This document shows positions 47,105 to 48,896 of a stretch of 52,573 nucleotides of DNA, piece after piece (within the stretch, counting starts at the first letter, position 1; each line of letters begins with the position of its first letter). Source of the stretch: Rhodocyclaceae bacterium. Its GTDB lineage: Bacteria; Pseudomonadota; Gammaproteobacteria; Burkholderiales; Usitatibacteraceae. The stretch is from assembly GCA_020247545.1 (NCBI GenBank), contig JADCIX010000035.1:1-52573 (forward strand), given 5' to 3'. Below the pieces are notes generated by a model, which saw only the letters and a program-made list of their open reading frames with translations, searched no databases and had not been told where the DNA came from. A program made the translations under genes and the position numbers.

Positions 47105-47164
47105 TCGATGTGATGGGACGATTCCCACGCTGGCTGAGAAGTCGTTAGAATCAACACCATCAAA

Positions 47165-47238
47165 GCGGGTGTAGTTCAATGGTAGAACGGCAGCTTCCCA
47201 AGCTGCATACGAGGGTTCGATTCCCTTCACCCGCTCCA
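47165..47238 (+). tRNA. tRNA-Gly (anticodon CCC)
   Basis: A 74-nt cloverleaf with encoded CCA. The acceptor arms are GCGGGTG and CACCCGC, the D arm is GTTCAATGGTAGAAC, the anticodon stem is GCAGC/GCTGC with loop TTCCCAA (anticodon CCC), the T arm is GAGGGTTCGATTCCCTT, and the discriminator is U73. All stems pair fully. The last 19 nt are duplicated downstream. Confidence 0.96.
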
Positions 47239-47613
47239 AACAAAGCGCCCCATCGGGGCGTTTTTGCTTTGGGCGGCGTGGCAGGGATGAGAACCCTCAC
47301 CGGGTTCGACTAATCGAAGTCCAGCGGACTTCGGTTGGACGTTTGCGGCGCTGTTTCGGTTCATGCCGCAAACGGTCGCGTCGCGATGATGTTTTGGCCC
47401 AAAGCCGAAACATCACATTCCCTTCACCCGCTCCAAACAAAGCGCCCCATCGGGGCGTTTTTGCTTTGGGCGGCGTGGCAGGGATGAGAACCCTCACCGG
47501 GTTCGACTAATCGACGTCCAGCGGACTTCGGTTGGACGTTTGCGGCGCTGTTTCGGTTCATGCCGCAAACGGTCGCGCAGCGATGATGTTTTGGCCCAAA
47601 GCCGAAACATCAC
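47220..47613 (+). repeat. Two tandem 197-bp tRNA-linked repeats with serial hairpins (RtT-like arrangement)
   Basis: Unit 1 is 47220-47416 and unit 2 is 47417-47613; a third copy stops after 10 bases (47614-47623). Each unit begins with the last 19 nt of tRNA-Gly, CCA included. Few differences separate the units: GAAGTCC versus GACGTCC, and GTCGCGTCG versus GTCGCGCAG. In order each unit contains the terminator hairpin, GAACCC/GGGTTC, GAAGTCC-agc-GGACTTC, GTTTGCGGC/GCCGCAAAC, and an 11-bp stem GATGTTTTGGC/GCCGAAACATC. No protein frame is convincing. The layout parallels the 178-bp repeats after E. coli tyrT, which also carry 19 nt of the tRNA 3' end and yield RtT RNA. An unknown structured RNA is inferred. 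Confidence 0.8.
47242..47265 (+). terminator. Intrinsic terminator of tRNA-Gly, first copy
   Basis: Hairpin CGCCCC-atc-GGGGCG (47246-47260), extended by A/T pairs and followed by TTTTT. It is only a few bases past the CCA end. A second identical copy lies 197 bp further on in the second repeat unit (about 47439-47462). Confidence 0.85.
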
Positions 47614-47688
47614 ATTCCCTTCAGCATCCATATTGAACATGCCGCCAGTGTGTCGTTTTTCGGGCATCTGACAGCCGCAGATTTGAGC

Positions 47689-47711
47689 AATTTAATATGT
47701 CATGTTAAATT
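47689..47711. promoter_or_regulatory. Inverted repeat in the DUF4143 ATPase promoter
   Basis: Perfect 7-bp arms AATTTAA and TTAAATT are separated by 9 bases, ending 6 bases before the ATG at 47718. The A/T-rich site covers where a -10 element and the transcript start would lie. Its place fits an operator for self-repression. No Shine-Dalgarno is visible, so the message may be leaderless. Confidence 0.45.
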
Positions 47712-47717
47712 AATCAA

Positions 47718-48896
47718 ATGCCAACCATTTCCAGAACCATCGAAAAACAGCTTTCAAGAGCTGCCAAGGCGTTCAGCGCCGTCGTGGTGACGGGCCCGCG
47801 GCGGAGCGGCAAGACGTGGTTACTGCGCCATCAATTCCCGAAGGCACAGTACTTTCTTTTCGAAGATCCGGATGTCATCGGCCGCTTCCGCGCGGACCCC
47901 CAAGGGTTTCTTGACGGGGTGACGCCACCGGTGATCCTTGATGAAATCCAAAACGTCCCCGAAGTGTTCAACTTTGTACGTAGCCGTATCGACCAGAATC
48001 CCGGGAAGAAAGGTCAGTGGTTTTTGACAGGTTCACAAGAATCATCACTGATGCAGAACGTGAGCGAATCGATGGCCGGTCGTGCTGCGATCTTGCAGAT
48101 GCTGCCGCTTTCGCTGAGCGAATCCCCCAAAGTGTCGCTGCTGCGCGGCGGCTATCCCGAGGTCATCCTGCGACCGAACGCAGCCGAGTTATGGTTTTCG
48201 TCGTACACCCAGACCTATTTGGAGCGCGATGTTCGCAACGCCAGCGCCATTGTCAGTCTAGAAACATTCAGACGCTTTATGTCGCTACTTGCCACGCGGC
48301 ACGGCGCCGTGTTGAACATGAGCGAATTCTCTGCGCCTCTCGGCGTGAGCGTTCCAACAGTTTCGCGTTGGTTGGATATTTTGGAAACATCCGGCCTGAT
48401 TCTTCGACTGCCTCCGTTTTTCGAAAACGTCGGCAAGCGTCTGATCAAGGCGCCCAAGATTTACTGGCTCGATTCCGGCCTTGTCTGTCATTTGCTCGGC
48501 ATACGAAGTAGCGCAGAGCTTGAACGCTCTCCGTTCCTTGGTGCCATTTTTGAAGGCGCAGTTGCAAGCGAAATCATCAAATCACAAGTTAACCAAGGCC
48601 AACGAAAGGCGCTCTATTACTTCCGCGACCAGCAGGGCCTTAAGGTCGATTTCATCAAACTCAACGACGGCGGCACCGCGACGCTTATCGAGGCCAAGGC
48701 AACACGTTCACCGCAATCCGGTATGGTGGCACCGATGATCCGTCTGACCAAAGCGTGGCACGACACGGCGCAGCAGCGAAAACTCACCCCCTCAATGCTC
48801 GTTCATCGCGCAGCAAAAAATGCGATCGAATCCGCCGCGATTGCGCCAGGATGCCGGGCTATGACCTTTGAGAGATTCGTCGAACAACTAGGCTGA
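47718..48896 (+). CDS. AAA-type ATPase with DUF4143 (orphan accessory ATPase)
   Basis: A 392-aa protein. An N-terminal AAA/P-loop domain (about 1-140) carries Walker A TGPRRSGKT (about 25-33), Walker B VILDEIQNVP (about 73-82) and sensor WFLTGSQ. A winged-helix-like segment in the middle (SVPTVSRWLDILETSGLI, about 210-227) leads to a DUF4143 domain (about 160-350), with a PD-(D/E)XK-like feature near VDFIKLNDGG then LIEAKATR. The family is widespread and patchy, frequently horizontally moved, and of unknown function. The gene is alone, lacks a ribosome site and has A/T-rich upstream DNA, all consistent with acquisition next to the tRNA. Confidence 0.85.
   Translation: MPTISRTIEKQLSRAAKAFSAVVVTGPRRSGKTWLLRHQFPKAQYFLFEDPDVIGRFRADPQGFLDGVTPPVILDEIQNVPEVFNFVRSRIDQNPGKKGQWFLTGSQESSLMQNVSESMAGRAAILQMLPLSLSESPKVSLLRGGYPEVILRPNAAELWFSSYTQTYLERDVRNASAIVSLETFRRFMSLLATRHGAVLNMSEFSAPLGVSVPTVSRWLDILETSGLILRLPPFFENVGKRLIKAPKIYWLDSGLVCHLLGIRSSAELERSPFLGAIFEGAVASEIIKSQVNQGQRKALYYFRDQQGLKVDFIKLNDGGTATLIEAKATRSPQSGMVAPMIRLTKAWHDTAQQRKLTPSMLVHRAAKNAIESAAIAPGCRAMTFERFVEQLG

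Follow-up and report, generated by a model that had tools for sequence, protein, structure and literature searches.

RtT RNA was reportedly first described by Bosl and Kersten in 1991, and it has stood in the databases for decades as a by-product of one tRNA operon. BIME/REP are small palindromic intergenic repeats that occur in many copies. The integrative elements that target tRNA genes repeat a 3' part of the tRNA, which starts in the T-loop.

In the consulted parts of the published work RtT is treated as a functional small RNA (PMC4986893, PMC8092127), which counts against its reading as a mobile repeat. RtT-family RNAs are reported near tRNA-Asn and tRNA-Lys in A. pleuropneumoniae (PMC4986893, whose consulted part speaks of many tRNA operons), and the presence of RtT at other tRNAs is already partly in print. 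The portions of the literature that were searched contain no mention of an antisense matched to its target, of a 57|58 rule valid for different tRNAs or of the core described below in dispersed copies.

The window, i.e. the whole stretch of 52,573 nucleotides that was analysed, lies on contig 29 of its own genome (G000). The tRNA gene, the repeat units and their parts are the following:

47165..47238, + strand: tRNA-Gly(CCC), the host gene of the repeats (ARAGORN, Rfam RF00005)
47220..47416, + strand: unit 1, 197 nt, opening with the tRNA's own A58-A76 (direct-repeat comparison)
47417..47613, + strand: unit 2, 197 nt, opening with an exact A58-A76 copy at 47417-47435 (direct-repeat comparison)
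47614..47623, + strand: third copy, truncated to the first 10 of the 19 nt (sequence)
47245..47265, + strand: terminator-type hairpin and T-run directly 3' of the tRNA, repeated at 47442-47462 (sequence)
47220..47288, + strand: hairpin A, tRNA 3' end and terminator stem against terminator stem and antisense of the tRNA 3' end, -41.9 kcal/mol
47270..47289, + strand: antisense of the tRNA 3' end, the 5' strand of the closing helix P1 (18 pairs with 47416-47435)
47291..47307, + strand: hairpin P2, antisense T-stem 5' half with the sense GGGTTC
47304..47416, + strand: core E, GTTCGACTAA-H1-TTGGACG-H2-GGTC-H3-H4, to the junction with A58
47310..47338, + strand: core hairpin H1, 13 pairs
47340..47374, + strand: core hairpin H2
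47375..47387, + strand: core hairpin H3
47388..47414, + strand: core hairpin H4

The first-pass annotation had described two tandem 197-bp units after tRNA-Gly(CCC), each opening with exactly the last 19 nt of the tRNA, and a third copy that ends after 10 nt. Both observations are confirmed at these coordinates. The two units differ at three positions (47318, 47381 and 47382 in unit 1), the 19 nt shared by their starts correspond to the tRNA positions A58 to A76, and the third copy stops at 47623. A copy of the tRNA's own 19 nt (up to 3 mismatches) was found within 330 nt of none of the 31 control tRNAs, taken from loci fetched only for their match to tRNA-Gly.

Read from the tRNA, the unit of the window is composed of A58-A76, the terminator-type hairpin, a stretch antisense to the 3' end and T-arm of the tRNA, then a short loop, GGTTCGA, the hairpins H1-H4 and again A58-A76; the GGTTCGA, placed between the loop and H1-H4, is the sense half. 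Five hairpins per unit had been proposed at first reading, and the predicted fold indeed comprises five hairpins and the closing helix, apart from the terminator-type hairpin. The folding energy of the unit is -91.8 kcal/mol as RNA (z -7.4) and -49.6 kcal/mol as DNA (z -6.4), with P1 included in both folds. In three other loci (L041, L169 and L170) the tRNA end, the terminator and the antisense form a near-perfect palindrome, as judged by eye. The promoter pattern scan of the window locus gave a single match, upstream of the tRNA, and none within the units. In the terminator pattern scan the post-tRNA hairpin was recorded solely for the minus strand, and a terminator-like match on the plus strand fell on H3.

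An AAA_14/DUF4143 ATPase gene is located at 47718-48896 of the window and starts about 95 nt past the truncated last unit. In Betaproteobacteria bacterium UKL13-2 (CP012157, G003; locus L167) an AAA_14-like start (26.9 bits; Pfam cut-off 27) is placed after the truncated unit behind tRNA-Leu.

The feature of the window is interpreted, with a probability of roughly 0.6, as an RtT-type tRNA-linked repeat element, in which a structured core (E) is joined to the tRNA-Gly gene. Its relation to RtT is seen through covariance models. At gathering scores Rfam finds the tRNA alone in the window, and up to E 10 just the tRNA and chance-level matches; the RtT family, RF00391, has no match in the window at its gathering score and none up to E 10 over 47150-47700. 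The model R1 was derived from an alignment of 11 units from the window's genus (the genus alignment). It matches four RtT units of E. coli K-12 at tyrT/tyrV with E values of 3e-4 to 7e-3 (in 69 kb), as well as the bridge loci L077, L089, L092 and L113, with best E values of 4e-8 to 8e-12. These bridge loci are also matched by RF00391, with L077 scoring above the cut-off of the family and L089, L092 and L113 under it. A core-only model, R2, which contains the core and a few tRNA bases at its ends, did not match the E. coli RtT units even at E 10, so the link to E. coli comes from R1 and the intermediates.

R1 and the bridge loci make the window unit a relative of RtT and not a member of RF00391 as curated. 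Judged by sequence, the window units appear as distant relatives of the E. coli RtT repeats, with a homology that is statistically detectable. The RtT-like architecture pointed out in the first-pass annotation is therefore supported. On the other hand, the annotation had called the repeat sequence unrelated to RtT, which does not hold since R1 matches the E. coli units and shares intermediate loci with RF00391, and the possibility it raised of a new ncRNA family is, in the sense of a wholly new one, not supported, as the same loci tie the units to RtT.

The 19-nt rule had been expected to extend to other tRNAs, and it does so at many of them. In the window's own genome three units are placed behind the tmRNA (contig 72, where two minus-strand model matches were taken as antisense artefacts), a core detected by model match accompanies tRNA-His on contig 42, where the copies have 3-4 mismatches, and another core is situated inside a tRNA-His copy, in its T-loop, the 5' half of this copy being present (L163, contig 47). 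In the window's genus, units follow tRNA-Gly, tmRNA, tRNA-Ser(CGA), Phe(GAA) and Leu(TAA), each with its own 19 nt at 0 to 3 mismatches. An early search pattern, GGATGAGAA..TTCGACTAA, proved too restrictive, with 8 sites from 3 of the 13 genomes. The named records from a pattern scan are UKL13-2, which is a complete genome with a unit at tRNA-Phe, a Rhodocyclaceae MAG (G008) and a Betaproteobacteria MAG (G012). The repeat is not a duplication restricted to one strain, since G008 is 93% identical over the tRNA and the first unit and the core is matched by R2 in 30 of 200 genomes of the order. Within the class, RF00391 matches 33 of 185 genomes at E 1e-3 (11 over the cut-off). Within the phylum it matches 36 of 299 at E 1e-4 (24 over the cut-off), including one family outside the class. 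The 19 nt of the respective tRNA recur at many of the RF00391 loci that were fetched. Of the 15 loci returned by the phylum search, 13 carry the 19-nt copy of their tRNA (up to 3 mismatches) and a GAGT or GAAT junction; L265 and L274 lack such a copy and junction.

The tabulated units, all from Pseudomonadota, accompany tRNA-Gly, Ser, Gln, Tyr, Arg, Phe, Leu, Lys, His, Glu and tmRNA, i.e. 13 anticodon types and tmRNA, each with its own 19 nt exact or nearly so. The table holds 64 units, three E. coli units being counted twice, and admits copies with up to 3 mismatches. The copy is exact in 47 of the 64, which is not an unbiased rate because units were picked for having a copy. The matching stops right at A58 in 63 of the 64, and the 57|58 boundary is in this way directly observed. 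Some of the loci fetched behind a tRNA show no such copy, several of them having a shortened or degenerate one.

Integrative elements typically leave behind a duplicated 3' portion of a tRNA, beginning in the T-loop. The units might accordingly be remnants of att sites from elements of this kind, with a tyrosine recombinase that acts on tRNA 3' ends. However, the tabulated units measure just 117-268 nt (median 180) with no gene seen inside, and their related cores sit with many different 19-mers. Furthermore, a recombinase that relied on core identity and moved to another tRNA would be expected to leave chimeric tRNAs. Such an origin is considered improbable.

The order set contains 27 examined loci out of the 30 returned by R2, four of the 27 coming from R2 training genomes. 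A tRNA or tmRNA is found at most 260 nt upstream in 18 of the 27, and in 15 of these 18 the best 19-nt match starts exactly at the end of the core. The whole copy with no more than one mismatch is present in only 6 of the 18, and in 7 of them (L235, L240, L242, L246, L249, L252 and L256) just the first 9-14 nt are found, the T-stem side being retained. Among the remaining nine loci, four run into a downstream tRNA 3' end, two (L245 and L257) were misoriented by the script and scored as misses, and three are unassigned.

Across tRNAs, a modest clustering of the cores according to host genus is seen. For 32 cores at known tRNAs, the mean identity is 0.509 between different tRNAs of the same genus versus 0.473 for the same tRNA in different genera, a difference as extreme in 1 of 1000 label shuffles. 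The core tree requires 5 genus-label changes versus 9.1 in shuffled trees (0 of 200 shuffles as low). One of the four genera, g26, is not clustered (112 of 500 shuffles as low). Within the window's genus the cores behind tRNA-Gly, Phe and Leu group together in one clade (support 96/95), and most other branches are weak.

Copies of the core also occur in dispersed form. In G014, a genome of the same family, 33 matches are bounded by GCGA and TCGC, which form short inverted ends (L144-L161, L184-L213); a search of 26 other genomes of the family, G000 excluded, gave 1 to 3 matches of this form in each of four. Among 18 R1 loci in G014, ARAGORN finds a tRNA in two, one of which (Lys) carries a unit, and one further locus is placed behind a tRNA-His-like end recognized by eye. 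The G014 copies are found inside long ORFs less often than neighbouring positions (16 of 26 versus 181 of 208, by a crude ORF rule). On the loci of G014 and of a second repeat family, the sole bacterial Rfam family over cut-off is tRNA. That dispersed copies generally lie in palindromes is not claimed, because the signals are weak and driven by few copies, both in G014 (30 copies, p 0.045) and in this second family, where two or three of the 10 copies account for the p of 0.02.

Sites with different numbers of units are known from two sources. Where G008 has its unit, the tRNA-Gly(CCC) genes of G001 and G006 are followed only by a terminator before the same downstream gene, identified by eye; the other copies of tRNA-Gly(CCC) examined in the genus have other surroundings. 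The RtT unit is matched in 4655 of 5426 E. coli genomes, in a median of 2 and a maximum of 9 places. The E. coli tyrV site was compared by means of a joined empty site as query, and in the best-scoring 30 of 5391 records, which are not a random sample, it has no unit in 7, one in 9, two in 2, three in 11 and an irregular arrangement in 1, with unit steps of about 178 bp. RtT-unit places on E. coli plasmids amount to 18 of 9948. What is directly observed is that many tRNA genes have related cores, that one relative holds dispersed copies and that E. coli records differ by whole units.

Differences of this kind, together with direct repeats that measure 19 nt, or 43 nt in G008, are also what would be expected from a plain tandem duplication of the tRNA end and terminator region by slippage, kept by chance and involving no element. 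Slippage cannot, on the other hand, produce related cores at many tRNA genes across families, nor an antisense to the unit's own tRNA. This explanation is highly improbable and largely refuted, given that the core is shared between tRNA genes.

The data compared (E. coli records, G001/G006 versus G008, and G014) contain no observed jump to a new site, and neither a larger autonomous form of the element nor a transposase or recombinase was noticed in them. Viral carriers were also considered, and the six IMG/VR pattern matches were judged by eye to be chance matches in coding-looking sequence, without core hairpins and with no tRNA found by ARAGORN.

The antisense strand of the units was compared with the tRNAs of 38 units. 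Its mean complementarity score to the own tRNA is 27.4, and the highest of 2000 random re-pairings reaches 24.7; the permutation p value is a guide only, since related units are not independent. Unit by unit, the own target outscores every target of other amino acids in 14 of the 38 and does not in 24. On average, therefore, the antisense fits its own tRNA best, and it pairs with the 19-nt copy and so closes a chain of covarying hairpins. Even in the absence of selection, the antisense and the sense could be held alike by palindrome-correcting mutation.

A structured scaffold followed by a stretch identical to the target, which TTCG precedes in the tRNA gene, recalls a TnpB-like RNA-guided nuclease, with the 19 nt as guide and TTCG as target-adjacent motif. 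Nevertheless, this stretch is paired within the same strand by the antisense copy and the intact target adjoins the unit, which makes a guide function hardly credible.

Compensatory changes in homologues, named as a test of the structured element in the first-pass annotation, are seen in the genus alignment. In this alignment 95.5% of the cells pair and 22 of 46 pairs have changed on both sides. Out of 500 shuffles, none reaches the observed values in four of the five measures, and the fifth (further pair types) is attained by 30. Slid structures placed on the same alignment are only 30-47% paired. For P1, two-sided changes are seen in all 4 outer pairs and in none of the 3 inner ones. A wider alignment based on sequence only (A3) retains P1, H2 and H3 in its consensus, with two-sided changes in 9 of 16 pairs. 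The covariation of the hairpins and the average fit of the antisense to its own tRNA are direct results of these comparisons.

Covariation of this strength is of RNA type, and it favours a functional small RNA gene (RtT RNA) that is released from the tRNA transcript, the spread between tRNAs being incidental. In such a case the 19 nt would be kept because the tRNA processing enzymes make the 3' end of the RNA. The A. pleuropneumoniae RNAs cited above agree with it, as does the RtT sRNA reported to be up at 10 C in Thioalkalivibrio in the consulted part of PMC8092127. Against it, the terminator-type hairpin and T-run of the window separate the tRNA from the core, and the sole promoter match precedes the tRNA. 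In the window, as in 7 of the 18 order loci, the last copy has lost the CCA side and retained the T-stem side, and hence a CCA-ended product is not generally preserved; moreover, some comparable sites have no unit (G001/G006 and the E. coli tyrV records). A small RNA gene as the explanation of the locus is regarded as unlikely. CCA-ended tRNA mimicry as a selected feature is disfavoured, as the terminal copy is often without the CCA side. With the CCA side of the last copy dispensable and a hairpin and T-run in place, a tRNA-like, CCA-dependent RNA product is unlikely as a general function, which favours a small mobile repeat, for which tRNA ends would serve as sites where it does no harm.

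For the RtT-type element, the following course may be envisaged. Core E would behave as a small and probably selfish mobile element, which only seldom arrives at a new tRNA gene and, once there, changes its number of units. The core would be joined at the T-loop boundary G57/A58 and the last 19 nt repeated after it, so that the tRNA is left intact. In the folded strand the 19-nt copy would pair with the antisense strand (P1), closing the hairpin chain, and this folded and closed strand may be what is maintained. Units could subsequently be gained and lost by recombination between the 19-nt repeats. With the tRNA and a terminator preserved, tRNA ends would be tolerated sites. A conceivable route starts with the core joining at a nick in the T-loop, after which fold-back copying at the terminator and the T-arm would make hairpin A and P2 from the tRNA itself.

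A different arrangement is found at the 5' end of some tRNA genes. Upstream of the UKL13-2 tRNA-Phe there are two 145-bp units, which carry the 5' end of tRNA-Phe, its D-loop containing an insert with a different hairpin. Loci of this D-loop type are L039 (1342-1631, minus strand), L041, L280 and L283. A similar arrangement is observed before tRNA-Phe in G012 and in contig 55 of G000, and before tRNA-Ser in G014; the D-loop query unit has 14 matches in G012. The D-loop units look like a 5'-end counterpart, the tRNA-Phe and tRNA-Ser copies there being partial and placed upstream of the real gene.

A broader proposal can be formulated tentatively, as a possible though unlikely generalization. 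RtT-type units would be one branch of undescribed miniature mobile hairpin-chain elements, which insert in the hairpin loops of tRNA genes (at 57/58 in the T-loop and, for a second core, in the D-loop), copy the tRNA by fold-back into target-specific flanking hairpins leaving the tRNA whole, and can escape to a dispersed form. The E. coli RttR would then be the transcript of one of them. If a general tRNA-end-targeting element with a target-matched antisense does exist, the origin of RtT becomes a question of mobile elements and the tRNA-flanking 'sRNAs' of RtT type need to be re-read. It would also point to a so far undescribed way of copying tRNA ends into DNA.

Compared with the known systems, the units share with the tRNA-targeting integrative elements the repeated tRNA 3' part that begins in the T-loop, but they are tiny, no integrase is seen and the 19-mer changes with the host tRNA. 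The units and BIME/REP (naRNA4, RF02564) are alike in being small, palindromic, intergenic and multi-copy. In the consulted part of PMC2965389, rtT is likened to elements upstream of gatY, rbfA and cvpA. These regions match naRNA4/REP (cvpA below the cut-off) and not RtT, and R2 has no match in them and one chance-level match elsewhere in the comparison (E 3.1).

The closest system is the RtT of E. coli (tyrT/tyrV, rttR). The window differs from it in the host tRNA, in the hairpin sequences and linkers (TTGGAC; GAAC in RtT) and in the terminator-type hairpin after the tRNA. Its location is a tRNA-Gly(CCC) gene instead of the tyrT operon, and the RF00391 matches themselves also lie behind several other tRNAs. 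The 19-nt copy expected at the end of each RtT unit is, in the window, exact for unit 1 and limited to its first 10 nt for unit 2. Both systems have in common the 19-nt A58-A76 copy, a unit of about 180-200 nt, the tandem arrangement and the chain of hairpins. In the Rfam structure of RtT the tRNA-derived end pairs with the strand just before AUGAGAA, and the window unit is closed in the same manner.
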